Shown: one piece after another, positions 10,290 to 24,667 of the stretch | Layout of the letters: the number at the start of each line of letters is the position of its first letter | Numbering within the stretch: position 1 is the stretch's first letter | Assembly (NCBI GenBank): GCA_019310535.1 | Contig: JAFDED010000017.1 | Coordinates: forward strand, 1 to 64,000 | Reading direction: 5' to 3' | From: Deltaproteobacteria bacterium | Lineage (GTDB): Bacteria > Desulfobacterota > JAFDED01 | Length of the DNA: 64,000 bases | Position numbers and translations under genes: made by a program | Notes under the pieces: generated by a model | Database searches by the model: none | Told to the model about the DNA's origin: nothing | What the model saw: only the letters and a program-made list of their open reading frames with translations

Positions 10290-11666
10290 ATGACCGAAAA
10301 CGCCGGTCAACTCACAGGGCTTTACAAAGAGGACGTGGAGCATTTGCTTCACCCGGTTACCCAGCTTAAGAATCATTTCCAGCAGGGACCGAGGATCCTG
10401 GAGAAGGGCGAAGGAATTTACGTTTTCGACCTGGATGGCAAACGATACATCGATGGGTTGTCCGGGCTGTGGAACGTCTGCATCGGGCATCACCGTCCCG
10501 AGATGGCCAAAGCCATTCAAGAGCAAGTAGAGAAGCTGGCCTTTAGTCCCACCTTTTTCGGATTCTCCAATATTCCGGCCATCAAACTGGCCGATAAACT
10601 GGCCGGCATAGTACCCGATGGTCTGACAAAAGTGCATTTTACCTCCGGAGGTGCCGAAACCAACGAGACCAACCTTAAGCTCGCCCGCTATTATCACAAG
10701 CTGATCGGCAAGCCAAATAAAACCAAGATCATATCGCGGCGTAAGGCTTACCATGGAATCTCCATGGGCGCCATGAGCGCGACGGGGATCGAGACCTACT
10801 GGAAGATGTTTGAGCCGATGGCCCCTGATTTCTTGCACATAGCCCCGCCTTATTGTTACCGCTGCGAGCTTCACCTGACCTATCCATCGTGCAACCTTGC
10901 ATGCGCCCGTCAGCTTCAGGAGGTCATCGACCGCGAGGGAAGGGACACGGTGGCAGCCTTCATCGGAGAGCTGATTCTCGGGGCCGGCGGCGTTATCGTG
11001 CCGCCTGATGATTACTGGCCGCTTATCCAGGATATATGTCTCCGTGAAGAAGTGCTTTTGATCATTGACGAGGTCATCACGGGCTTCGGGCGGACGGGGA
11101 AGTGGTTCTGCTGCGAGCATTACGGCCTTGAACCCCAAATGCTCTCCCTGGCCAAGGCCATCACCAGCGGGTACCTGCCTCTGGGCGCCGCCATGATCAA
11201 AGATGAAATTTACTCCGCCATGCTTGAACGCACCCCCACAGGAATGCCTTTTATGCACGGATTCACGTATAGCGGCCATCCCGTCGTGTGTGCGGCATCA
11301 CTTTGTAATCTTGGCATCATGGAACGAGAGGACCTCGTTGGCAACGCCGCGCGCACCGGGGCATACTTCCAGGAGCGGTTGAAAGAACTGGCACATCTCC
11401 CCATTGTTGGCGAGGTCCGGGGCAAGGGCCTCATCGCGGCGGTCGAGTTGGTGAGCGACAAGTCGAACCGCGATCCTTTCACTCCGCCCGGCTCAGGAGG
11501 GGCGGCGGTGGCACAACGGGCCTACGAGATGGGAATGATTTGCCGCGCCGCCGGCGACATCCTGGCCTTATCTCCGCCCCTGATCATCACCAAACAGCAG
11601 GTGGACGACATGGTGGAAATCCTGCGTCAGGCAATTGAGGATACGGTAAGGGAGTTGAAAAAATAA
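10290..11666 (+). CDS. Class III PLP-dependent aminotransferase (omega-amino acid type)
   Basis: Cytosolic aminotransferase that moves an amino group from an omega-amino acid or amine (taurine, beta-alanine, putrescine or similar) to a 2-oxo acid. Visible marks: SGGAETNETNLKLAR (cofactor phosphate region), YHG near the middle, IIDEVITGFGRTGKWF (aspartate contacting the pyridine nitrogen), and SLAKAITSGYLPLGA carrying the PLP lysine. The length of 458 residues is typical. The enzyme is upstream of a TctCBA importer, which may supply its substrate. The actual amine donor is not readable from the sequence. Confidence 0.88.
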   Translation: MTENAGQLTGLYKEDVEHLLHPVTQLKNHFQQGPRILEKGEGIYVFDLDGKRYIDGLSGLWNVCIGHHRPEMAKAIQEQVEKLAFSPTFFGFSNIPAIKLADKLAGIVPDGLTKVHFTSGGAETNETNLKLARYYHKLIGKPNKTKIISRRKAYHGISMGAMSATGIETYWKMFEPMAPDFLHIAPPYCYRCELHLTYPSCNLACARQLQEVIDREGRDTVAAFIGELILGAGGVIVPPDDYWPLIQDICLREEVLLIIDEVITGFGRTGKWFCCEHYGLEPQMLSLAKAITSGYLPLGAAMIKDEIYSAMLERTPTGMPFMHGFTYSGHPVVCAASLCNLGIMEREDLVGNAARTGAYFQERLKELAHLPIVGEVRGKGLIAAVELVSDKSNRDPFTPPGSGGAAVAQRAYEMGMICRAAGDILALSPPLIITKQQVDDMVEILRQAIEDTVRELKK

Positions 11667-11690: not shown

Positions 11691-12030
11691 CGTAAACTAC
11701 TATCGCCTAAAGGCGAGGGTTTTTCTCCCATTCCCCGAGTGGGACAATAAGCTGTTGTTACTGCGTACGGACATGTCTACCAATCTTTCCTCGTAATTTT
11801 TGGGGGGGACTCCCCTTATTTTATCCTTGACATCCTAGATGAATGCGGTTTATAAAAAATCAACTTATCTTGTAGGGAATCAAGAAATAGGGAAGGAGAA
11901 ACAGAGGATTCATAGAGCGATCAATCCTGAGTTTGATGAGTTTTTTCCATCACAGGGGCCGAATCTTGACCCCACAGGAGGTATCAGTGGACAAACGGGA
12001 AAGAACTATTTTTCAGAAAGGAGGAGAGAC

Positions 12031-13011
12031 ATGAAAAGGATAGTTTCGGTACTGCTGGTGGGCCTGATGGCCGCCGCGCTTCTGGTTTCCACCGGAGCCG
12101 GTGTCATGGCCGCAGAGAAAAAGTACCCCAGCAAACAGATCAATTGGTTGATTTTCTCATCAGCCGGGGGTGGAACCGATATCTTCTCCAGGATGGCCGC
12201 GATCCGTCTGCGCCGCATCCTCAAGGTTCCCATTGTCATCAGCACCATGAGCGGCGGCTCGGGCTCAAGGATGATGAATTACATGCTTACCAAGCCGAGA
12301 GACGGTTACACCATCGGGTCCATTACCAATTCCGGTCTCGGTGCCATTGCCCGGGGAATGACCAAGGCAAAACTGAGCGATCTGACAGGCATTGTCCGGG
12401 GCTGTTACGATCCTCAATCTTTTGTTGTATCCAGCAAGGGGCGCTTCAAGACCATTCAGGAAGCTGTGGAATTCGGGAAGGCAAACCCCAAGAAGGTGAA
12501 ATTTGGAATCGCTCACATGGCCGGCGTTGATCATATAACCGTTTACGAGTTTGCCAAGGCCGCTGGCTTTAAACCGGAATACGTGCCCTTCAAAAGTGGA
12601 GGGGAGATTATCGTGGCCCTGCTGTCAGGGACAATTGACCTCGGTGTCCTGAATCCAAGCGAGTTCCTGGGACAGTACGATGCCGGAACAGTAAAACCCG
12701 TGGTCTTTCTGGTTCCAAAGCGCTTGAAGGACTTCCCCGATGTCCCCACCACCAAGGAACTTGGATGGGACGTGGAGCAGGCCACCTGGCGCGGCGTTTT
12801 CCTCATGTCAGGAACTCCCGAGCCTGTTGTGGAGGTCCTGGAGAAGGCCTTTTTGAAGTCCATGAAGCACAAGGTCTATCAAGATTATCTTAAAAACAAC
12901 TACATGGGGCCTGAGAGTGTAATGAACAGAAAGGATTGGGAGGCCTTCCTTCAAAAGGAATACCCCATCTGGGAAAACGCCATGAAGACGTTGGGATACA
13001 AGAAAAAATAA
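12031..13011 (+). CDS. tctC: Tripartite tricarboxylate transporter substrate-binding protein
   Basis: Periplasmic solute receptor of the TTT family (Bug/TctC). The signal peptide is visible (MKRIVSVLLVGLMAAALLVS...GVMAAE). After it come YPSKQINWLIFSSAGGGTDIFSR, the usual phosphate- or carboxylate-pinching loop, and the C-terminal KEYPIWENAMKTLGYKKK. The track ORF is extended upstream; ATG 12031 has an ideal AGGAGAGA ribosome site. It is followed by a strong hairpin and then tctB and tctA. The ligand is probably a carboxylate, but it cannot be specified. Confidence 0.9.
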   Translation: MKRIVSVLLVGLMAAALLVSTGAGVMAAEKKYPSKQINWLIFSSAGGGTDIFSRMAAIRLRRILKVPIVISTMSGGSGSRMMNYMLTKPRDGYTIGSITNSGLGAIARGMTKAKLSDLTGIVRGCYDPQSFVVSSKGRFKTIQEAVEFGKANPKKVKFGIAHMAGVDHITVYEFAKAAGFKPEYVPFKSGGEIIVALLSGTIDLGVLNPSEFLGQYDAGTVKPVVFLVPKRLKDFPDVPTTKELGWDVEQATWRGVFLMSGTPEPVVEVLEKAFLKSMKHKVYQDYLKNNYMGPESVMNRKDWEAFLQKEYPIWENAMKTLGYKKK

Positions 13012-13021
13012 AGGAAGAGGC

Positions 13022-13047
13022 GGGAACCCGGCCTCGCCCGGGTTCCC
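13022..13047 (+). terminator. Intercistronic hairpin after tctC
   Basis: A ten-base-pair stem (GGGAACCCGG/CCGGGTTCCC) with a six-base loop is followed by a T-rich stretch. It sits between tctC and tctB. It probably acts as a partial terminator or RNA stabiliser, so that the receptor is made in excess over the membrane parts. Confidence 0.65.
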
Positions 13048-13075
13048 CATTTTCATGTTTTGTGAGTCGTTGCCG

Positions 13076-13531
13076 ATGAATAAAGATCTTCGTATCGGTT
13101 TAGTATTACTGGTTATTTTCCTCATCCTTTTCGGCATCAGCTTTACGCTGCCGGTATCCGCCATGGCTGAAACACATACCAGTCCGGCCTTTTTCCCGCG
13201 CATTGTTCTTATCATCGCTCTGGGATTGACTTGTATTCTGATCATGAAAAATCTTTTTGTTAAAGAGGTCTCTTCAGGTAATAAAGGACTTACCAGAGAA
13301 CAGAGGGTGAGAACCCTGGGATCGATGGGCCTGGCCGTTCTTTACGGATTTGGCACTATTTTTATCGGAACCTTCGTCTCCATGTTTTTCTTGATCATAG
13401 CCATAATGTTCATGTGGGGGGTGCGCAATAAATTAGTCATACTGCTCAATGCTCTTTTAACCCCGGTTTTTGTTTATTATGTCTTTACTAAAATATTGCT
13501 GGTCCAGTTTCCATCGGGATTCTTGTTTTAA
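13076..13531 (+). CDS. tctB: TctB-family small membrane subunit
   Basis: Small integral membrane component of the TTT importer, 151 residues with four hydrophobic helices (for example IGLVLLVIFLILFGISFTL and MFFLIIAIMFMWGV). TctB proteins are poorly conserved, and the call rests on the helix pattern, size and place between tctC and tctA. I preferred the ATG at 13076 (MNKDLRIG) to the upstream ATG at 13055 because it starts nearer the first helix. Confidence 0.85.
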   Translation: MNKDLRIGLVLLVIFLILFGISFTLPVSAMAETHTSPAFFPRIVLIIALGLTCILIMKNLFVKEVSSGNKGLTREQRVRTLGSMGLAVLYGFGTIFIGTFVSMFFLIIAIMFMWGVRNKLVILLNALLTPVFVYYVFTKILLVQFPSGFLF

Positions 13532-13543
13532 AAAGAGGTTCCC

Positions 13544-15061
13544 ATGTTAGACCAATTGCTCCTCGGGATAAATACCATATTGCAGCCCTGGAACTTTCTT
13601 GCCATCCTGACAGGGGTTGTATCCGGGATTATCATCGGAGCTTTGCCTGGGTTGACGTCCACCATGGGAGTGGCCCTGCTCATCCCTTTCACCTATACCA
13701 TGGAACCGATCCCGGCCATCTGCATGCTGACTGCTCTTTACTGCGGGGGCACCTATGGCGGATCCATTTCAGCCATTCTGGTTCGCGCGCCGGGAACGCC
13801 CGCTGCCGCAGCCACCACGTTCGACGGCTATCCCCTGGCACAAAAGGGAATGGCGGGGAAAGCTCTGGGCATGGCTTGCATCAGTTCCAGCCTCGGTGGA
13901 TTGTTCAGCGTCATTGTGCTGATCTTGCTGGCGCCCTTTCTGGCCAATATCGCCATTAAATTCGGCCCACCCGAATATTTCGCCCTTGCGGTCTTTGGCC
14001 TCAGTATGATCAGCAGTCTCGGAGCCAAATCGGTCCTGAAAAACCTGATCGGTGGAACCATCGGCGTCTTTCTTGCCTGCGTCGGAATGGATGAATTCTC
14101 CGGATTCACTCGATACGATTTCGGCATCACTCACCTGATGGATGGAATCAGCTTTATCCCTGTTATGATCGGCCTGTTTGCAGCGGCAGAAGTTTTCAGG
14201 CAGGCAGAAATAGGGATGCACAAGATCGTGGTAGATAAAAAAATTACCGGCCTGTTACCTTCCTGGGAGGATATCAAGGAGGTCAAGGCCACCCTCGTGC
14301 GGTCATCCCTGATCGGCACCTTCATCGGAATATTGCCGGCGGAAGGCGGGACGGTGGCCTCATTTATCGGGTATAATGAAGCTAAACGTTTTTCCAAGCA
14401 TCCCGAAAAGTTCGGTACAGGGATTCTGGACGGAATAGCCGGGCCCGAAACCGCCAACAATGCCGCGACCGGGGGGGCTATGGTGCCGACCCTGGCTCTG
14501 GGGATCCCCGGAAGCGGCACCACGGCCGTTATACTTGGCGCCCTGCTGGTCCAGGGCCTGCGACCGGGACCCCTGCTCTTTATTCAAAACTCTAAGATAG
14601 TATACGCGATTTTTGCCGGGATGTTCGCCGCCAACCTTATCTTTCTCGTGCTCGGCCTTGTAGGCGCAAAACTATTTTCCCAGATCATAAGAATACCAAA
14701 TTATGTGCTGAATCCAATAATTCTCATCCTGTGCATTGTCGGCTCCTATGCCTTGAATAATAATATGGCCGATGTCTGGATTATGCTAGCTAGCGGCATT
14801 ATCGGATATAAAATGCGCGAGCATGGTTTCGCGGCTGCTCCCATTGTGCTGGGCCTGGTCCTGGGAGAGTTGATCGAGATTTCGCTCCGGCGTTCCCTGA
14901 TTGTTTTCGGAAACAATCCCTTTATCTTCTTCACACGGCCCTATTCGGCCCTGTTTATTGTTCTGACGGTTCTTGGCCTTCTTTCTCCCTGGATTCGCAA
15001 CCTTATTGAAAACAGAGGATTTAAAATACGAACTGCTGTCAACAAATCGGACACTAAATAA
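13544..15061 (+). CDS. tctA: TctA-family large membrane subunit
   Basis: Main transmembrane channel of the tripartite tricarboxylate transporter, about 500 residues with roughly ten to twelve helices. It has the family motifs GALPGLTSTMGVALLIPFTY and GGTYGGSISAILVRAPGTPA, repeated in weaker form in the second half (ILPAEGGTVASFIGYNEAKR, GIPGSGTTAVILGALLVQG), which shows the internal duplication known for this family. It begins twelve bases after tctB. The importer is driven by an ion gradient rather than ATP. Confidence 0.95.
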   Translation: MLDQLLLGINTILQPWNFLAILTGVVSGIIIGALPGLTSTMGVALLIPFTYTMEPIPAICMLTALYCGGTYGGSISAILVRAPGTPAAAATTFDGYPLAQKGMAGKALGMACISSSLGGLFSVIVLILLAPFLANIAIKFGPPEYFALAVFGLSMISSLGAKSVLKNLIGGTIGVFLACVGMDEFSGFTRYDFGITHLMDGISFIPVMIGLFAAAEVFRQAEIGMHKIVVDKKITGLLPSWEDIKEVKATLVRSSLIGTFIGILPAEGGTVASFIGYNEAKRFSKHPEKFGTGILDGIAGPETANNAATGGAMVPTLALGIPGSGTTAVILGALLVQGLRPGPLLFIQNSKIVYAIFAGMFAANLIFLVLGLVGAKLFSQIIRIPNYVLNPIILILCIVGSYALNNNMADVWIMLASGIIGYKMREHGFAAAPIVLGLVLGELIEISLRRSLIVFGNNPFIFFTRPYSALFIVLTVLGLLSPWIRNLIENRGFKIRTAVNKSDTK

Positions 15062-15379: not shown

Positions 15380-15928
15380 GTGATTGTTATGAAAGTAATA
15401 GGAGTTCATCTGGATCGTTGCACAGGCTGCAAGACCTGTGAACTGTACTGTGCCGTCGAGAGGGGAAGCGTTGGAAAGACGCTTTTTAAAGCCGTTCAGG
15501 AATCACCAGCGCCACAGCCGCGTGTTCGCGTGGAAGGGAGTAATGACGCACCGCTTCCCTTCCAGTGTCGCCACTGCCTCCAGGCACCGTGCCTGAACGC
15601 GTGCCTCACCGGCGCCCTGGTCCGCGACCCGGAGACAAATATGGTGGTCGTTCATGAGGACCGCTGTATTGCATGCTGGACCTGCACCATGTACTGTCCC
15701 TACGGTGTTATTTTCCCGTGGCCGCAGAGGGAAATGGCACTCAAGTGCGACCGGTGTGCCTATATGGAAAGCCCTGTTTGTGTCGATGTTTGCCCCGCGA
15801 ATGCTTTGGAGTTGGTGGAAGTGAATGACTTCGACGAAATGTTTCGTGAAAGAAGGCAGGAAATTAGCAACAATCTGACTTCCGGGGATGAAAAAAAGGG
15901 ATTGCTCTTGCTGGATCTCGTTCGGTAA
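15380..15928 (+). CDS. CooF-like four-cluster polyferredoxin
   Basis: Iron-sulfur electron carrier with sixteen cysteines in four motifs: CTGCKTCELYC, CRHCLQAPCLNAC, CIACWTCTMYC and CDRCAYMESPVCVDVC. This is the arrangement of CooF, HycB and related subunits that carry four [4Fe-4S] clusters. No signal peptide or Tat motif is present, so it is cytoplasmic. The GTG at 15380 has AGGA five bases upstream; an ATG at 15389 is the alternative. It opens a same-strand module with a CooS-like protein and a flavin oxidoreductase, the classic company of CooF, so it likely shuttles electrons between them. Confidence 0.85.
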   Translation: MIVMKVIGVHLDRCTGCKTCELYCAVERGSVGKTLFKAVQESPAPQPRVRVEGSNDAPLPFQCRHCLQAPCLNACLTGALVRDPETNMVVVHEDRCIACWTCTMYCPYGVIFPWPQREMALKCDRCAYMESPVCVDVCPANALELVEVNDFDEMFRERRQEISNNLTSGDEKKGLLLLDLVR

Positions 15929-15982
15929 ACTCTTAACTCACATTTCTTCACTTTAAGCAACAATGTAGGAGTAGATAAGTCC

Positions 15983-17464
15983 ATGGAAACAATTTATGTA
16001 AAAACAATAGACCCCATCAGCCAAGATCTCCTGCGCTCAGCGGCTCAGCAGGGACTCAAACTTAACTGGGAGCGCTACGAGAGCCTGCAACCTCAGGATG
16101 GTTTTCTGCGAGTGGGTCTGAGTTGCCCTTATGGCTGTTTACAGGGGCCTTGCAGAATCGATCCCTTTGGCCGGGGTCCCGACCGCGGGCTTTGCGGTCT
16201 GGAACGGGACGGTATGGTGGCCGCCTTTTTGCTGCGCCTCTCCCTCCACGGGGCCCTGGAGGCCATGAACGGTCTCTCGGGGCCTGATAAGGGCTGCGAG
16301 GTATCATGGCCCGAACCTCTGAATACAATGGTCGACCGTGCTCTTAAAAACCTTGGAGGGAATACCCTTTCCCTGGAAGAGGTCTATAACAGTGCTTTCC
16401 TTTTGCAAAGACCCATGGAACCCCCTGAGCGATTGATCCTCCAGGCCTTGCGCCTGGGAGTCATGACCTTGGGGTTGCTGGAACAGGGGCACGCACTGGG
16501 AGATGCCTTGGGGAATCCGCAGTGCAAGGCGGGATATGGGCTTCTCGCTGGTGATGACATTGTTATTGGGATAAGCGGACACCCCTCCCGTCGGTTCCTA
16601 AAAGACGTACAAGAGGAGGCTTCCCGCAAATCTTCAATCAGCGTGCGACTGGTCTCTCTTGGAGACTTGATCCCCCTTAATGAGAGCTTAGTGCCTTGCG
16701 CCTGCACCTCAGGAGAAGCTGAACTGGTGGTGAGCTCAGGCAGAATTGCTCTTCTTCTCGCCGGGCCTGGAGCTGATCCATCCCTGCCTGAGTTGTGCAG
16801 ACGCCTCGATGTGCCCCTGGTTAAGTCCCAAGACGTCAAAAAAGCGGAAGAACTCTTGAGTCTCGCCAGGGAATCTTCCAGCAGCCGCCCCCGGGGAACC
16901 TTCAATCCGGACCCAGCCCTGGTGCAGGAAGCCCGAATCAACCGGGCCGCTGGCGGGCTGGAAGACTTGTTGAAAAAGAATCCCGCAAAAAAACTGGCTC
17001 TTCTGGGTGGAGCGGATACTCCTCAGCAGTCCTTCGGCTGGATACCGGTGGAGGTGGCTTCCGCCCTTCTGGGAGAAGGGGTGCTCGTGGCCGGTTGGGG
17101 AGATGCCGCCCTGTGGATGCTCAAAGGAGGGCTCGCTGCAGAAGAACGAGAGTACCCCGCCCGGCTTCTTGACGATCAACAGGGCCCTCTGATCGCCCTG
17201 AAGGCCATGGCCGTGCAGGGGAAACTGCAGAACCTCCAGGGAATCTGCTTTACGGGACTTAAGGCATGCCGGGATCTGGCGGTTGCGCTGGGCCTGGCCA
17301 GCCTGGGATGTAAGGTGTGCATCGCGGTTCCGCTCCCCCTCTGGGGGAGCGAAAACGTCCGTACCCTGCTGGCTGACAGGATCGCAGCCGGAGGCGGAAT
17401 CCTTGCCCATTTCGACCACCCACCAAACGCACAGGAACTATTGGAATGGTTCTTGAAACGCTGA
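15983..17464 (+). CDS. Shortened, degenerate CooS-like (CO dehydrogenase-family) protein
   Basis: Related to the Ni-Fe carbon monoxide dehydrogenase catalytic subunit but only 493 residues instead of about 630. The N-terminal segment GCLQGPCRIDPFGRGPDRGLCG (Cys48, 52, 57, 71) matches the CooS cluster-binding region, but the spacing is Cx3C and the D-cluster cysteine is Asp39. GHP at residue 200 and CACTSGE at 239-245 align by eye with the CooS C-cluster histidine and cysteine, and KAC at 429 may match the last cysteine. The other expected ligands (around ALLLAGPG and AGWGDAAL) are missing. CO oxidation by a standard C-cluster is therefore unlikely. It lies between CooF-like and FAD oxidoreductase genes, so it may hold a different cluster or act as a redox scaffold. 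Confidence 0.75.
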   Translation: METIYVKTIDPISQDLLRSAAQQGLKLNWERYESLQPQDGFLRVGLSCPYGCLQGPCRIDPFGRGPDRGLCGLERDGMVAAFLLRLSLHGALEAMNGLSGPDKGCEVSWPEPLNTMVDRALKNLGGNTLSLEEVYNSAFLLQRPMEPPERLILQALRLGVMTLGLLEQGHALGDALGNPQCKAGYGLLAGDDIVIGISGHPSRRFLKDVQEEASRKSSISVRLVSLGDLIPLNESLVPCACTSGEAELVVSSGRIALLLAGPGADPSLPELCRRLDVPLVKSQDVKKAEELLSLARESSSSRPRGTFNPDPALVQEARINRAAGGLEDLLKKNPAKKLALLGGADTPQQSFGWIPVEVASALLGEGVLVAGWGDAALWMLKGGLAAEEREYPARLLDDQQGPLIALKAMAVQGKLQNLQGICFTGLKACRDLAVALGLASLGCKVCIAVPLPLWGSENVRTLLADRIAAGGGILAHFDHPPNAQELLEWFLKR

Positions 17465-17513
17465 TTTGCGAAATTTCGAATTTCCAAATGTTCAACAGGG
17501 CGGGAGCATATCA

Positions 17514-18791
17514 ATGGAATGCCTTATAGTTGGCGGAGGGGCCGCAGGTCTGCATGCAGCTCTGATGTGCAGGCAATGCTGGCCGGAAAAATCCGTCACC
17601 CTCATCGAAGCTGAAGCAGAGACCGGGTACTACCGCACCCTCCTGCCCCAGTTCATGGTGGGGCAGATGGAAGAGGAAAAGCTGTTTTTTTGGAAACCCG
17701 GGGAGGATTCGCGCTTGAAGGTTCGAGCAGGGCTGAAAGTTGAGTCCCTGGACAGGATCAATCAGTGCCTGCGCCTGGAAAATAATGAGAAGCTCCGGTA
17801 TGAGCGCCTGGTTCTGGCACCCGGTGGCCGCCCGCTCATGCCCGGCATATGCGCCGATGCTTCATGCCGGGGGATATTCCCCGTGCGCGATCTCACAACG
17901 GCCAGAAAGGTTCGGGAATGGCTCGACGGACACCGGGAAATCGTGGTACTCGGGGGCGGATTGGTGGGACTGAAGACTGCGGTCTCTCTCAGGATTTCAG
18001 GTTTCAAGGTTTCCCTGGTGGAAAAAGAAGACCACCTGTTGCCCCGGGTATTGAGTTCCGGTGCAGCCCGGCCGGTGGAGGATCATCTCAGGCATATGGG
18101 GATGAGCCTTTTCCTGGGTTGCTCTCTGGAGGATATCCGGATAGAGAGAGGGTCGTTAAAGTCGGTGCGTGCGGGTAGTCAATGGCTGCCGTGTGCAACC
18201 CTGATGGTGGCCATCGGCTCATCCCCCGATGTGGGGTTCCTTAAGGGTTCAGGTCTGCTGGAGAATGAAGAACTTGTGGTGTCTCCCACCTTGCAAACCC
18301 GGGATGAAATAATTTACGCCGCGGGAGATGCGGTTTCCATCTGCAATTATGAAGGGGAGAAATTCTCTCCCTGGACATGGCCTCAGGCGGTCTCCCAGGG
18401 CAAGCTGGCCAGTGGTAACCTATACAGACCCATACCGCTGCCCCTTAACGTCCTGACTCGCCCCAACTCCATGAATCTCCACGGACTGTCGATAGTGATC
18501 CTGGGGCCACCGGTGGAGGGGGCTGAGGTGATCCATTATACCGAGTCGGCCGACAGTATTTACCGGGAGCTTTTCATCAGGGATGGACGCATTGTAGGGG
18601 GGGCATTGGTTGGAGACATATCAGGGGCCGGCACCTTACACGCGGCAATGACCACCGGAAAAAATGCCGAAATGCAAGATTCGCAATTCGAATTTTCTCT
18701 ATTACAGCCCCGCAGCAGGGTGCTTTCAAGGTTTGTGGGGAACTATTTTGGGCAGAGACGGCGGGCACGTTTACTGCTGCATCAGGAGTAA
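17514..18791 (+). CDS. FAD/NAD(P)-dependent oxidoreductase of the CooS-like module
   Basis: Pyridine-nucleotide-disulfide-type flavoprotein. The N-terminal FAD site is LIVGGGAAGLHAAL, the NAD(P) site is VVLGGGLVGLKTA near residue 145, and the second FAD motif is IIYAAGDAV. The CxxxxC redox disulfide of the lipoamide dehydrogenase group is absent, so it resembles NADH:rubredoxin/ferredoxin reductases or the FNOR protein often found next to cooS and cooF. ATG 17514 follows a GCGGGAG-like site; the track start (TTG 17466) only adds a poor leader. It probably links NAD(P)H to the polyferredoxins. Confidence 0.85.
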   Translation: MECLIVGGGAAGLHAALMCRQCWPEKSVTLIEAEAETGYYRTLLPQFMVGQMEEEKLFFWKPGEDSRLKVRAGLKVESLDRINQCLRLENNEKLRYERLVLAPGGRPLMPGICADASCRGIFPVRDLTTARKVREWLDGHREIVVLGGGLVGLKTAVSLRISGFKVSLVEKEDHLLPRVLSSGAARPVEDHLRHMGMSLFLGCSLEDIRIERGSLKSVRAGSQWLPCATLMVAIGSSPDVGFLKGSGLLENEELVVSPTLQTRDEIIYAAGDAVSICNYEGEKFSPWTWPQAVSQGKLASGNLYRPIPLPLNVLTRPNSMNLHGLSIVILGPPVEGAEVIHYTESADSIYRELFIRDGRIVGGALVGDISGAGTLHAAMTTGKNAEMQDSQFEFSLLQPRSRVLSRFVGNYFGQRRRARLLLHQE

Positions 18792-18796
18792 AGGAC

Positions 18797-19516
18797 ATGA
18801 TGATCCACAAGGAAATTTGTGTTGGTTGCGGGCGGTGTCATCCATACTGCCCCACAAGTGCCATTCACTTTGATGACTTGAAAAGCGTGGTGGATCAGGA
18901 TGTTTGTTACGAATGCGGGTCCTGCCTGCGGGCGGATGTCTGTCCCGTGGATGCCATTGAGGAGAGTCCGCATGTCTATGAATATCCCCGTGCGCTTCGA
19001 AAATATTTCAGCGACCCCGAAGCCACCCACGCTTTGACGGGTATGTCAGGCCGCGGCACCGAGGAGTCTAAAACCAACGACGTTACGAACAGGTGCGGCC
19101 CTGGTGAGGTAGGAATCGCCATCGAGGTGGGCCGGCCCACCATCGGGATGGACCTGAAGGACATCCAGAAAATCACCAGGGCTCTGGCCAGGGCCGGTAT
19201 CCACGAGATCGAGCCCAACAACCCCATCCATTCAATGATTCAAGACCCATCAACCGGAGACCTGAAACCGGAGCTGATGGGGGAACGGGTCCTCAGTGCA
19301 ATCATCGAAATAGCGGTGAAGCGCGATCGACTGCGCCATGTCCTTCGCACCCTGAAAAATGTCGCCGGGGAGCTGGACAGCATTTTTTGTCTGGATGTTA
19401 TCACTCAACTGGAACCCGGGCTGAGGGTGCCACAGGAAGTGTTGGACGTCATAGAATCAGAGGGGCTGTCGTGGAGGCCCAACGCCAAGATCAACATGGG
19501 CCTTGGAAGGGCCTGA
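18797..19516 (+). CDS. Two-cluster ferredoxin fused to an unrecognised domain
   Basis: Residues 1-60 form a bacterial-type 2[4Fe-4S] ferredoxin (CVGCGRCHPYCP and CYECGSCLRADVCP). The remaining ~175 residues are a domain I do not recognise. It starts with TGMSGRGTEESKTNDVT, continues with GEVGIAIEVGRPTIG, and ends in SWRPNAKINMGLGRA. The glycine-rich, charged start looks like a conserved binding loop. It begins six bases after the flavoprotein stop and ends sixteen bases before the next gene, so it is part of the same operon. It probably receives electrons from the flavoprotein or the polyferredoxin. Confidence 0.65.
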   Translation: MMIHKEICVGCGRCHPYCPTSAIHFDDLKSVVDQDVCYECGSCLRADVCPVDAIEESPHVYEYPRALRKYFSDPEATHALTGMSGRGTEESKTNDVTNRCGPGEVGIAIEVGRPTIGMDLKDIQKITRALARAGIHEIEPNNPIHSMIQDPSTGDLKPELMGERVLSAIIEIAVKRDRLRHVLRTLKNVAGELDSIFCLDVITQLEPGLRVPQEVLDVIESEGLSWRPNAKINMGLGRA

Positions 19517-19531
19517 GAACAGGAACGTATC

Positions 19532-20179
19532 ATGACACACAGTCTTCATCGAGAAGGAAAGCTGGATTCATTGGAGCGGGACTACGCCCTTTTCATCATG
19601 CCGGCGCGCGGCTTCAATCATGTGGGCAGCGGCCCTAAGGTACGCCGCCTGATGGAACTGCTGTATCTGGAAGGACCCTCCAACATGATCTGCAGCTCGC
19701 TGCGTCGCAACCTTTACAGTGGCGTCAGTTCGGAGAAAGTACTGGAGAGCATCAAAGACGGTGATAGAGTTTTTTGCGTATTCAACAGCAGAGAAAAATT
19801 AAAAGAAACCCTCATCCGCATCAAGGAAGCAGATGAAGGCCTTTCCATTGTGGTAAGCGGCCTCATCGACAAGGTGAGGGAAATAACCGATGAGATGGGG
19901 TTGAATCCACACACCATCAATCTCTCCCTTGGTATTCATGGCCGTACTGATCGGATTCCACCTCCCGACATCCGGCAGTTCACCACCATGTGCGGACACG
20001 GCATGGTGTCTCCCGGCCTGGTCCGCGACGTTATCCGCAGGGTTAAGACGGGAAAGCTCAATTCCTGGGAGGGGAGTCTGGTTTTGGCGGCCCCTTGCTC
20101 ATGCGGGATTTACAATCCCCATCGCTCCGAGGAACTGCTCCAGGAGCTGATCCCGCTGTATACGGTACATCGATGGTGA
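19532..20179 (+). CDS. Unrecognised cysteine-motif protein, last gene of redox module
   Basis: Soluble 215-residue protein without a signal peptide or membrane helix. Two striking motifs sit in the C-terminal half: FTTMCGHGMVSP and APCSCGIYNPHR. These look like metal or cluster ligands or a catalytic pocket. The N-terminal half (MPARGFNHVGSGPKVRRLME) is basic and could bind a phosphate or nucleotide. I do not know the family. The operon position suggests it is the functional partner of the ferredoxin fusion and the CooS-like protein. Confidence 0.6.
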   Translation: MTHSLHREGKLDSLERDYALFIMPARGFNHVGSGPKVRRLMELLYLEGPSNMICSSLRRNLYSGVSSEKVLESIKDGDRVFCVFNSREKLKETLIRIKEADEGLSIVVSGLIDKVREITDEMGLNPHTINLSLGIHGRTDRIPPPDIRQFTTMCGHGMVSPGLVRDVIRRVKTGKLNSWEGSLVLAAPCSCGIYNPHRSEELLQELIPLYTVHRW

Positions 20180-20928
20180 TTCCTCACCGCCGAAGTTATC
20201 ACTGGAGTCTTAAATGACGCCGCGGTCTCTGATCGTCTCACCTGCTTGAGGAGATTGCGGCGTTTCGTGCCGCCATTAAAAATAGCCTCTTTTCCCCCAG
20301 CTCACGGGCCGCTTTATCAAAAGTACCGAGGAAAATTGTCAAATTTTTGATATTGTTAACGTCAAATTTCTATCACTTTCATCCTTCACTTCATGTTGTC
20401 TGAGCGTTTCATTTTCTCCTTGAGATTTGAAAACCATTGACTTTCATATCACTCAAACGCTGGATCGCCGCATGATTCTGTGTGATTGAATTTCAAAAGC
20501 AATGTAAAAATTGTTTGGATGGCATATTATTTGCGTTTTTTCAAAATCAGATACTATCTTTTCTCAAGGAGTTATCTCATTCAGTCATATTTATCGCGAA
20601 TCCACTGAACATAAATCATATGTTCAGACCATTGTCCAACCCGGGTATTGGCGAACTTTCTCAGAGGCTGCACTTCGGAGGTATGGCCATTTTGGCATCA
20701 CTGGCTCAGATTCATAAAGATTTCATAATCAGTGGTGCAGTCTCATACCCCTGCGGGCTTCTCCCGGTTCCGCAGAGAGGTCAGGCTGAAAAAAAGGAGC
20801 CGGTCCGCCTGAGGGTGAGCATTCCTATCGCGTTTTTCCCCTAATGGTCAAGAGAACAAGCAATCGTTTTTTGTGCTCACCTTTTTCTGGAATTGTCGGT
20901 GTTTTGAAAAATTAGGAGGCGGTTTGTC
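20180..20928 (+). other. Long leader region before the sigma-54 activator
   Basis: About 750 A/T-rich bases with no convincing gene; the track ORFs here lack ribosome sites and family features. It contains a sigma-54-like promoter at 20520, an inverted repeat AGCGTTT...AAACGCT (about 20404-20461) and repeated GTCAAATTT words near 20337-20370. These may be regulatory. Confidence 0.5.
20520..20535 (+). promoter_or_regulatory. Sigma-54-like promoter upstream of the NtrC-type regulator
   Basis: TGGCAtattaTTTGC has the correct GG and GC spacing for the -24/-12 elements. It lies about 395 bases upstream of the regulator gene, so a long leader would be made. The match is weaker than the one before cheW. 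Confidence 0.4.
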
Positions 20929-22320
20929 ATGCACAAAATCATGATTATTGATGACGATGAACTACTGGGTGTGTCGCTGAAAAAGCTTTTTGACGGAACA
21001 GGATACAATGCTTTGGTCTGCGAGAGCGGCAGTCAGGGTATCGAGCTCTTCGAGCGCTTTGCACCGGACATCGTCTTGCTGGATATCAGGTTGGGAGATA
21101 TGGATGGATTGGATGTGCTCAGAGAATTGAAGCGGATGAGGGAAGATATTCCTGTGATTATCATGACCGCCTACGGCACCATTGAACATACGGTGAAAGC
21201 TATGCAGGAAGGTGCATTCGATTATATCCAGAAACCCTTTAAAAAAAATACGATTCAAGAGGCGGTTGAAAAAGGCTTGAAAGACCTGCAGGCCATTACA
21301 AGCATAACCCACCATCGTCTCCAATATAGGGAAAAGCACGGGATTAACGAGATTATAGGCGAAAGCACCGAGATGAAAAAGGTCTATGAGCTTGTCGGGC
21401 GGTTTGCCAAAAGCGACGATACGACTATCTTGATTGAAGGGGAGAGCGGAACCGGCAAAGAGTTGATTGCCCAGTACATTCATTTTCTCAGCCCCCGTTT
21501 TGACAAACCTCTTGTTAAGTTAAACTGCGGTTGTCTTTCGGATACCCTGGCCGAGAGCGAGCTCTTCGGGTACGAAAGGGGCGCCTTTACCGGTGGTTTA
21601 AAGGAAGGAAAGCCGGGGAAATTTTCAATGGCGGAAGGGGGGACGCTCTTTCTGGATGAGGTCGCAGAACTGTCCTCAAACGTTCAGACAAAACTCCTGC
21701 GGGTTCTGGAGGAAAGGACCTATTTCCGGGTGGGAGGCACCAGGGAAATAACGTGCAATGTCCGGGTTGTAGCGGCAACCAACAAAAACCTCTTGTCGGA
21801 AGTCCGAAAAGGACATTTCCGTGAAGACCTGTATTATCGATTGAACGCCCTCAGCATAAGTATTCCTCCGCTGAGGGAAAGAAAAGAAGACATTATTCCC
21901 CTGGCCAGTTATTTTTTAAGCCAATATTGTAAAAAATATTGCAAACGTCATATTGACATTTCCCCTGAAGCCGAAGAAGTCTTAAGGCGATACCGCTGGG
22001 AGGGAAACGTAAGAGAACTGAGAAATGTCATGGAACGGGTCATTTTGATGGAGAATCCCAAGGTAGTGTACCCCGAGCACATCGAATCCCTGATTCAAAA
22101 AGGCGACCGGAATGAAACAATTCCTCACGCCATAACCGGAGAAATCTTTACCAGTGGCATAACGTACGACGAAATGGTGAAAAAGCTCCTCACATCAGCC
22201 CTGTGCACGACACAGGGTAACCAGTTGAAAGCGTCAAGGCTCCTGGGAATATCCAGGGCCAAGCTACGATACAATATCAGCAAGTACCGCCTGAACCTTG
22301 TGGCTGATATCAGCCAATAG
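20929..22320 (+). CDS. Sigma-54-dependent response regulator (NtrC family)
   Basis: Transcription activator with three domains: receiver (residues 1-120; acidic pocket IDDDE and phospho-acceptor aspartate in IVLLDIRLG), AAA+ ATPase (about 145-385; Walker A GESGTGKE, Walker B GGTLFLDEVAEL), and a C-terminal Fis-type helix-turn-helix (LKASRLLGISRAKLRYNISK). The sigma-54 contact loop reads GAFTGG rather than the usual GAFTGA. No sensor kinase gene is next to it. Two copies of a perfect palindrome lie at its 3' end and just downstream, and a strong sigma-54 promoter precedes cheW, so it very likely drives the chemotaxis genes that follow. Confidence 0.93.
   Translation: MHKIMIIDDDELLGVSLKKLFDGTGYNALVCESGSQGIELFERFAPDIVLLDIRLGDMDGLDVLRELKRMREDIPVIIMTAYGTIEHTVKAMQEGAFDYIQKPFKKNTIQEAVEKGLKDLQAITSITHHRLQYREKHGINEIIGESTEMKKVYELVGRFAKSDDTTILIEGESGTGKELIAQYIHFLSPRFDKPLVKLNCGCLSDTLAESELFGYERGAFTGGLKEGKPGKFSMAEGGTLFLDEVAELSSNVQTKLLRVLEERTYFRVGGTREITCNVRVVAATNKNLLSEVRKGHFREDLYYRLNALSISIPPLRERKEDIIPLASYFLSQYCKKYCKRHIDISPEAEEVLRRYRWEGNVRELRNVMERVILMENPKVVYPEHIESLIQKGDRNETIPHAITGEIFTSGITYDEMVKKLLTSALCTTQGNQLKASRLLGISRAKLRYNISKYRLNLVADISQ
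22301..22316. promoter_or_regulatory. Palindromic activator site, copy 1
   Basis: TGGCTGATATCAGCCA is a perfect 16-bp palindrome that overlaps the final codons of the regulator gene. The same core recurs 146 bp downstream. It is a good candidate for an upstream activating site bound by the dimeric Fis-type HTH of the regulator. Confidence 0.55.
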
Positions 22321-23546: not shown

Positions 23547-23775
23547 TCCGGCACAAGCGGCTCACCTTCAGGTGGGCATTGTGGTCGATTCGGTCCCGGA
23601 GGTATTGAATAGAAAACCTGCTTAAATCGGGGACTCATCAAAATTCAGAGCCACTCTTAACACTGACTGCATCATTGAGAATACTGAAACATAAGGAGGT
23701 GTAAAAATTGTGCTGGATATTGATCGGTTGCGAAGCGGAGAAGACATATCCTTACTTGAGAATGCAAAATTAATT
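23547..23775 (+). pseudogene. Decayed second cheW (C-terminal part)
   Basis: Nucleotide similarity to the 3' half of the intact cheW is clear: ggtgggcattgtggtcgatt, gtgctggatattgatcg and the end gagaatgca all align with it in order. Frameshifts, an in-frame stop and a lost middle part prevent translation. It is either a tandem duplication that decayed or a replaced original copy. Confidence 0.75.
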
Positions 23776-23890
23776 GCTAAACCGAGTAAGCACCGACAAT
23801 CTCAACATGAACAACTTTAAGAGGAGTTACTCATTGACCTTTGGGCCGCAACGAATGATGAAAATTAAAATTTTCGAGGGAGTCATACCA

Positions 23891-24667
23891 ATGAGAATTA
23901 CTACAGACACCACTGAATCAAGAAGAAGCTTTTTCTGCAAGCTGATGGGCTTGGCTGGTATTGGCTGGGCCATCAGCAAGCTGGGCATCAATGAAGCCCA
24001 TGCCAAAGTAGACAGCAAATATACCAATATCATGCCAAACGTTAAAGCCAGTTTCAACCATCACTTGGCGTATCCCGATATCAACCTTACCGCCTATGTG
24101 CATCCATTGGCCTCGGTGATCGGCAACATTTATCTGGGCAAACGGGTGATGGTTTCTCCTTGCGCATCGGTCAGGGGAGATGAGGGTACACCTATTTATG
24201 TTGGAGATTATTCCAATATCCAGGATTGTTGTGTGATTCATGCGTTGGAAACAGCAGAAGACGGCCACGAGGTGAGCAAAAACCTGTATGAAGTAAATGG
24301 GAAAAAATACGCCGTTTATATTGGTAAAAACGTGTCTTTAGCCCACCAGTCACAAGTCCACGGACCGGCGGTAGTAGGCAACAATACGTTCGTGGGAATG
24401 CAGGCTCTGGTCTTTAAAGCGGTCATCGGAAACAACTGCGTCATTGAGCCTGGCGCCAAAGTACTAGGCGTAAAGGTTGCAGATGGCCGGTATGTTCCTA
24501 TGGGCACTGTGCTCAATAAGCAGGCAGATGCGGACAACTTGCCCAGGATCACCGACGCTTACCCGTTTAAACAGCTTAACTCGGGCGTGGTCCACGTCAA
24601 TGTGCAACTAGCTGACGGCTATAATCAAAAAATACCCAAAGAATATGCAGGCGGCAAACATCACTAA
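23891..24667 (+). CDS. Tat-exported Cam-type gamma carbonic anhydrase
   Basis: Left-handed beta-helix enzyme that interconverts CO2 and bicarbonate. The three metal-ligand histidines are His117 (VIHALE) and His152/His157 (SLAHQSQVHGPA), with the same spacing as in Methanosarcina Cam. Arg95 in SVRGDEG and Glu120, the counterpart of the Cam proton-shuttle Glu84, are also present. The acidic loop typical of Cam but missing in CamH is retained. The N-terminus has a twin-arginine signal (ESRRSFFCKLMGLAG ... EAHA), so it is exported folded. ATG 23891 follows GAGGGAG; the track start is further upstream. It sits directly before an MCP, fifteen bases apart, and the A/T-rich composition differs from the surrounding core genes. 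Confidence 0.92.
   Translation: MRITTDTTESRRSFFCKLMGLAGIGWAISKLGINEAHAKVDSKYTNIMPNVKASFNHHLAYPDINLTAYVHPLASVIGNIYLGKRVMVSPCASVRGDEGTPIYVGDYSNIQDCCVIHALETAEDGHEVSKNLYEVNGKKYAVYIGKNVSLAHQSQVHGPAVVGNNTFVGMQALVFKAVIGNNCVIEPGAKVLGVKVADGRYVPMGTVLNKQADADNLPRITDAYPFKQLNSGVVHVNVQLADGYNQKIPKEYAGGKHH

Follow-up and report, generated by a model that had tools for sequence, protein, structure and literature searches.

A conserved five-gene redox module built around a carbon monoxide dehydrogenase relative without C-cluster cysteines

Carbon monoxide dehydrogenases (CODHs) are among the oldest metalloenzymes. Two kinds of protein have the CODH fold but no CO activity: the hybrid cluster proteins (HCPs) and the clade D protein CODH-V of C. 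hydrogenoformans (PMC13240472, PMC10502027). The small Ni-CODHs of clade G have as their signature a type III D-cluster, Tyr at the position of His93, Lys563, and largely kept C-cluster Cys residues (PMC6344411, Table 2). Three CODH surveys drop sequences without cluster ligands (PMC8776680, PMC11338639, PMC13240472) and another omits clade G (PMC13056359), and therefore proteins of the type described here would have been filtered out of them. In this work, we analyzed a 64,000-nucleotide stretch of a Deltaproteobacteria bacterium of the Desulfobacterota (assembly GCA_019310535.1, contig JAFDED010000017.1, positions 1 to 64,000), referred to as the window. Five open reading frames (ORFs), all on the + strand between positions 15389 and 20179, encode a polyferredoxin (Fd1), a CooS-like protein, a flavoprotein (FNOR), a ferredoxin fusion (FdFus), and a 215-aa protein (Unk). 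Loss of the active site of the CooS-like protein, its retention by selection, and two undescribed Fe-S-linked neighbor families make it probable that this CODH relative serves a redox reaction different from CO handling.

Fold and metal ligands of the CooS-like protein

As a single sequence, the CooS-like protein matched Pfam Prismane weakly (7.6e-10) and scored 50 bits against TIGR01702, below the curated cut-off of 478 bits, and only its residues 1-91 convincingly matched solved CODHs. However, a profile of 16 CooS-like relatives aligned over the full length with one built from CODHs and close relatives (hhalign probability 100, E value of 1.8e-46). The AlphaFold model matched whole CODHs with E values of ~1e-21 to 1e-18 and TM scores of 0.70-0.80 on query length, and the predicted fold is that of a CODH (E value of 2.7e-21, TMq of 0.74). 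As judged from profile alignment and predicted structure, the CooS-like protein is a CODH homologue over its entire length. A first-pass annotation of the sequence, which had likened the locus to a cooS-cooF-FNOR layout around a CODH-derived protein, was right in this.

To map the metal ligands, we aligned the window protein and its relatives with 23 CODHs of the same phylum and numbered the C-cluster ligands (His261, Cys295, 333, 446, 476, and 526) and the acid-base pair (His93 and Lys563) as in CODH-II. Past residue 100, this mapping relies on alignments at about 20-25% identity, in which MAFFT and hhalign concur at Cys446 and Cys476. The four B-cluster Cys residues (C48, C52, C57, and C71) are kept and are invariant in the alignment of CooS-like proteins, with a one-residue insertion that yields the CX3C spacing (C48-PYG-C52) already pointed out in the first-pass annotation. 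At the D-cluster position Cys39, also noted there as altered, every window-type sequence has Asp, and at Cys47 only L014 departs from Ser; both Cys residues of this dimer-interface cluster are thus gone from the window protein (Asp39, Ser47). The loss at the C-cluster is larger than had been claimed: none of its five Cys residues is present in any window-type sequence tabulated, and both acid-base residues are replaced in the window protein. The sixth ligand, the His of a GHP motif, is present only in the window protein and L011 among the window-type sequences tabulated; most orthologues have Gln, Arg, Asn, or some other residue there, so it is not a kept ligand. The CTSGE motif is well conserved but is no C-cluster motif; its Cys is Ser in L018, and the first Cys of the longer CACTSGE is variable among relatives. 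The earlier emphasis on GHP and CACTSGE thus holds for the window copy but carries little weight, since the His and both Cys residues vary in relatives. Nor can the protein be placed among the Fe-S-O cluster proteins, as it has no Cys at the equivalents of Cys446, Cys476, and Cys526 that such a cluster uses in HCPs and CODH-V (equivalences from PMC10502027). In sum, the ligands were still missing after full-length alignment of a protein with a predicted CODH fold; the complete C-cluster set that the first-pass annotation had named as a refuting outcome did not appear.

The CooS-like gene showed dN/dS values of 0.18-0.26 in four pairs, which indicates that the protein devoid of a C-cluster is maintained by purifying selection, and reading frames were intact in full-length orthologues. 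In the window type, conservation at the former C-cluster positions exceeded that of random windows (p about 0.012), chiefly in the segments WGDAALWM (Asp374 at Cys476) and GGADT (at Cys446), and an SLGD motif near former Cys295 is conserved as well.

Recurrence of the gene set and the FdFus-Unk pair

We searched a sample of 395 genomes of the phylum, mostly fragmented, and further genome contigs, where the relatives lie on contigs of metagenome-assembled genomes (MAGs), so that binning errors are possible. Orthologues of the CooS-like protein were found in 8 further genomes of this sample and at 11 loci from genome contigs, mostly of Thermodesulfobacteriota but with one Rhodospirillales and one Acetobacteraceae MAG. 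The order Fd1, CooS-like, FNOR, FdFus, Unk recurred at 12 other loci (L012, L013 to L019, L022, L023, L024, and L026), counting L012, whose Fd1 gene is cut by the contig end. Absence of the cluster from all related genomes had been set beforehand as a refuting test, and the outcome was the opposite. FNOR was absent at L011 and at L020/L027, a single contig that begins inside the CooS-like gene. Genes of a tripartite tricarboxylate transporter (TTT) adjoin the module at 12 other window-type loci (L013-L018, L021-L024, L026, and L077), at L017 on the opposite strand. Within the window type, the distances of the five proteins were correlated (Mantel r of 0.77-0.94, permutation p at most 0.001), to which shared species history contributes. 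The same order at 12 loci and the correlated distances indicate that the gene set is more than chance. A search of the literature for CooS with TTT or for CODH pseudoenzymes found nothing relevant. At L077:1194-2728 (genome G221), the CooS-like and FNOR genes, each of them shortened, abut, as if by deletion or misassembly.

Among relatives with this gene set, retention of the C-cluster ligands is graded. A second complete module in this genome (contig C80, L030:5439-10280) encodes a 526-aa CooS-like protein that has lost its C-cluster ligands as well; no TTT genes were present within the 16 kb read at this locus. In family f8 of the same phylum, the gene set has the order FdFus-Unk-FNOR-Fd1-CooS-like-TctCBA (L065, L066, L073, and L079). 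Three f8 proteins (L073, L082, and L083) keep all six C-cluster ligands and Lys563, have Tyr at His93, and carry a type III D-cluster motif (C-x2-C-x5-C), and four others (L065, L066, L079, and L084) have lost C333, C446, C476, C526, and Lys563. TIGR01702 scores descend from 631 bits for the genome's own CODH to 280 (L073), 214 (L065), 110 (L030), and 50 bits (window). In a maximum-likelihood tree, all CooS proteins of the module lie on one side of a branch (100/99) that sets them apart from the sampled CODHs. Two highly supported clades correspond to the window type and to the ligand-poor f8 type. The branches are long and the tree tool flags long branches meeting, and therefore a shared origin of the module's CooS proteins, although supported, is not proven. 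Collectively, these comparisons suggest that C-cluster loss proceeded in steps within one conserved gene set of anaerobic bacteria.

The remaining two proteins form a constant pair. Family, profile, and fold searches revealed no Pfam, NCBIfam, or PDB relative of Unk, and FdFus, its ferredoxin motifs aside, had no match in the families searched. The Unk model (pLDDT of 88.8) contains two alpha/beta units and had no significant match in the PDB (best E value of 0.009, TM about 0.3). Among the invariant residues of Unk are H3, H6, R7, C154, H156, C189, and C191, and it is plausible that the His and Cys residues constitute a metal or Fe-S site. The FdFus gene lies directly upstream of every Unk copy inspected, the two overlapping or standing up to <200 bp apart. 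Unk-family genes occur in 28 of the 395 genomes, with seven copies, each in a pair, in this genome, and many FdFus-Unk pairs stand without CooS-like, Fd1, and FNOR genes. In the Unk tree, pairs accompanied by these genes cluster (8 changes versus 13 in shuffles); 17 rows of the window type and 5 of the f8 type are among them. FdFus (dN/dS of 0.08-0.09) and Unk (0.10-0.12) are the most constrained members of the module. Since no other part of the module is as conserved or as widely reused as the pair, which often occurs without a CooS-like gene, any new activity is more likely to reside in FdFus-Unk than in the CooS-like protein. Homology between FdFus and Unk was considered and is unsupported (hhalign probability of 0.6%), and no Unk gene was found on plasmids.

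Five further FdFus-Unk pairs without CooS-like genes were seen in this genome (L061, L062, L063, and L064, on G000 contigs C27, C17, C154, and C95). The pair on C95 neighbors a class III aminotransferase, TctCBA, an agmatinase-family protein, and a DapA-family protein. Elsewhere, pairs at L069:5601-8667, L070:5428-8494, and L072:3948-8798 lie near genes for thiamine pyrophosphate (TPP)-dependent decarboxylase or acetolactate-synthase-like proteins; the stretches read there contain no TTT and no CooS-like gene.

Proposed function and rival explanations

The genomic context offers a hint at the substrate. Neighbors of the module or the pair include TTT and TRAP transporters, both named from reading the sequences, PdxA-like proteins (L017, L019, L025, and L074), xylose-isomerase-like TIM barrels (L014, L015, L018, and L026), 6PGDH/DUF1932 dehydrogenases (L012, L015, L016, L018, and L026), and IlvD, UxaA, MR_MLE, a BhcA-like aminotransferase, and aldehyde ferredoxin oxidoreductase. 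Judged by general hydroxy-acid and C4 sugar-acid catabolism, this set would point to a hydroxy or sugar acid. The canonical CODH/acetyl-CoA synthase (ACS) of this genome is encoded elsewhere, on contig C113, and thus the module is not needed for CO chemistry. With the ligands missing as well, CO oxidation is very unlikely to be its role, in line with the first-pass view of a CODH derivative rather than a CO oxidizer. The canonical CODH itself (L111:58-3429 of G000) is a 1123-aa ORF whose N-terminal part resembles the CdhD/AcsD corrinoid protein subunit; an ACS-like gene follows this unusual fusion.

The explanation we tentatively favor, at slightly less than an even chance, is that the module is a single NAD(H)-linked oxidoreductase with an FdFus-Unk core, the CooS-like protein as a single-cluster subunit, and a hydroxy or sugar acid as substrate. 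The five proteins would assemble as a soluble multi-subunit enzyme, in which FdFus-Unk, with two ferredoxin clusters and the candidate metal or Fe-S site of Unk, would be the catalytic core. The core may convert a small carboxylic acid imported by the adjoining TTT transporter, probably one of the hydroxy- or sugar-acid type. The FdFus clusters, the CooS-like B-cluster, Fd1, and the FAD of FNOR would form the electron route that links the core to NAD(H). The CooS-like protein would descend from a CODH-type ancestor with a C-cluster and, after loss of its C- and D-clusters, have been retained as an electron-transfer or docking/scaffold subunit. The earlier proposal of a new electron-transfer or small-molecule enzyme derived from CODH needs changing in that the CooS-like protein, with one ordinary B-cluster only, is probably not the enzyme.

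Several observations weigh against this explanation. The catalytic role of FdFus-Unk is based on conservation and context, and the pair could be regulatory. The loss of the D-cluster ligands leaves the route by which electrons enter or exit the B-cluster in doubt. FNOR is missing at two loci, which implies that NAD coupling is not essential everywhere, and the catabolic neighbors vary and thus indicate no single substrate. Finally, the conserved segments at the former C-cluster positions are also what would be expected if the CooS-like protein had rebuilt its active site.

It is for this last reason that a catalytic CooS-like protein, although unlikely, constitutes the main rival: its emptied C-cluster pocket would have been rebuilt, metal-free or around another metal, and the other proteins would deliver electrons. 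CODH-V demonstrates that the fold can hold another cluster (PMC13240472, PMC10502027). However, no set of Cys or His residues replaces the lost ligands, as the remaining Cys residues of the protein, C241, C422, and C429, are each substituted in some orthologues; moreover, the CooS-like protein is the less constrained partner, and FdFus-Unk exists without it.

We consider it less likely still that the module is a sensor or regulator, in which FdFus-Unk and the CooS-like protein would respond to a small ligand or to redox state and regulate TTT or a pathway. PII-like proteins were among the top, albeit nonsignificant, structural matches of the two alpha/beta units of Unk, and the linkage to transporters, the up to seven paralogous pairs per genome, and the discussion of clade C and D CODHs as redox sensors (PMC13056359) would be compatible with such a role. 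Nevertheless, even the best PDB match of Unk is poor, neither a DNA-binding domain nor a kinase domain is encoded in the module, turnover suits an NAD(P)-flavoprotein and a 16-Cys ferredoxin better than signaling does, and some FdFus-Unk pairs lie in metabolic clusters without TTT.

That the CooS-like gene is a decaying remnant without function, as progressive ligand loss and the one shortened copy (L077) might suggest, is very improbable and is contradicted by the dN/dS values and the conserved frames, with the B-cluster present in all sequences. Least probable of all is a working CO dehydrogenase or HCP of divergent sequence: the CODH fold, the CooF- and FNOR-like neighbors as in cooS-cooF-FNOR clusters (PMC6344411), and the full C-cluster ligand set of L073-type relatives speak for it, but the ligand positions and the TIGR01702 score (50 versus 478) contradict it. 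The window copy has none of the five C-cluster Cys residues, neither D-cluster Cys, and no acid-base pair, and the Cys ligands common to CODH and HCP are among those lost; moreover, a canonical CODH/ACS is encoded elsewhere in the genome.

In a broader reading, FdFus-Unk may represent a metalloenzyme family of two subunits that has so far gone undescribed, with seven copies in this genome and a place in many acid-catabolic operons. Some lineages would have recruited a whole CODH-type module, which would then have lost its CO site while its scaffold stayed as a single-cluster electron-transfer subunit of a new class of multi-subunit redox enzyme; we regard this broader scenario as possible but doubtful. 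CODH descendants that have lost their site are hardly documented, and here the loss is stepwise inside one gene set with the protein still under selection. In addition, the module exposes two families that, ferredoxin motifs apart, have no relative in Pfam, NCBIfam, or the PDB, and FdFus-Unk looks like a much-reused unit of anaerobic acid catabolism.

Locus layout and comparison with described systems

The five same-strand genes lie where the first-pass annotation had placed them, except that two starts were corrected on the basis of the ribosome-binding site and homologue length: Fd1 begins at ATG 15389 and not at GTG 15380, and FNOR at ATG 17514 and not at TTG 17466 (Table 1). The Cys content of Fd1 fits four [4Fe-4S] clusters, and the protein matched the NCBIfam models HydN, DmsB, and PadI, each below the cut-off. 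The nearest NCBIfam model of FNOR was PadH (2.1e-42), also below the cut-off.

Table 1. Features of the module and the adjoining transporter genes in the window
Feature	Position	Strand	Basis
Fd1, CooF/HydN/PadI-like polyferredoxin	15389..15928	+	Pfam Fer4_11 4.9e-16; 16 Cys
CooS-like protein, 493 aa, predicted CODH fold, B-cluster ligands only	15983..17464	+	Profile, model, ligand table
CooS-like residues 39-71 (Asp39, Ser47, C48, C52, C57, C71)	16097..16195	+	Ligand table, 16-relative alignment
FNOR, FAD/NAD(P) oxidoreductase	17514..18791	+	Pfam Pyr_redox_2 4.6e-42
FdFus, two [4Fe-4S] ferredoxin motifs and ~170-aa domain	18797..19516	+	GRGTEExKTND and GRP motifs; domain without family
Unk, 215 aa, FdFus partner	19532..20179	+	MTHSLHR, TMCGH, and CxCGIxN motifs
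Unk stretch C154/H156 to C189/C191	19991..20104	+	Invariant columns; candidate metal or Fe-S site together with H3, H6
TctC, TctB, TctA (TTT)	11839..15061	+	Upstream, same strand; named from reading sequences

Upstream of the TTT genes, a class III omega-aminotransferase is encoded at 10290-11666; it is 41% identical to that of the C95 pair locus and may share the same pathway. Immediately 3' of the module lies a gene for an NtrC-like sigma-54 response regulator (20929-22320), and a -24/-12-like site with one mismatch was seen at 20520-20534. It should be noted that the window has no more of these sites than chance would give, the scan being uninformative (42 matches versus 34 expected), and that promoter and terminator scans gave counts no higher than in shuffles. 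A PADLOC search for an anti-phage role yielded marginal matches only. By eye, the protein encoded at 23774-24667 looks like a carbonic anhydrase of the gamma class that carries an export signal at its N terminus.

Among described systems, canonical Ni,Fe-CODHs (CODH-II, RrCooS) have the fold, the N-terminal region, and the B-cluster in common with the window protein, which is shorter (493 versus about 636 aa) and lacks the C-cluster, the D-cluster, and the acid-base residues. CODH-V and the HCPs bind an Fe-S-O cluster and retain most of the Cys ligands, whereas the window protein has lost those Cys residues. Phenylglyoxylate dehydrogenase PadEFGHI has an NAD-linking chain to which the PadH-like FNOR and PadI-like Fd1 correspond by weak matches below the cut-offs; unlike that enzyme, the five module proteins include no TPP-dependent 2-oxoacid oxidoreductase subunits. 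Clade G Ni-CODHs, or mini-CooS (OGP75751, Thermosinus WP_007288589), are likewise small CooS-type proteins related to FNOR and CooF genes (PMC6344411, PMC8776680). Compared by their signature (PMC6344411), L073, L082, and L083 nearly match clade G, but the window protein does not: its type has neither the C-cluster Cys residues nor the D-cluster Cys, and its FdFus, Unk, and TTT neighbors go unmentioned in the passages on clade G consulted. Finally, the module shares its layout and three genes with the cooS-cooF-FNOR cluster of Geobacter and Clostridium (PMC6344411), from which it differs in a CooS without an active site, in two extra conserved proteins of undescribed families, and in its linkage to a transporter.

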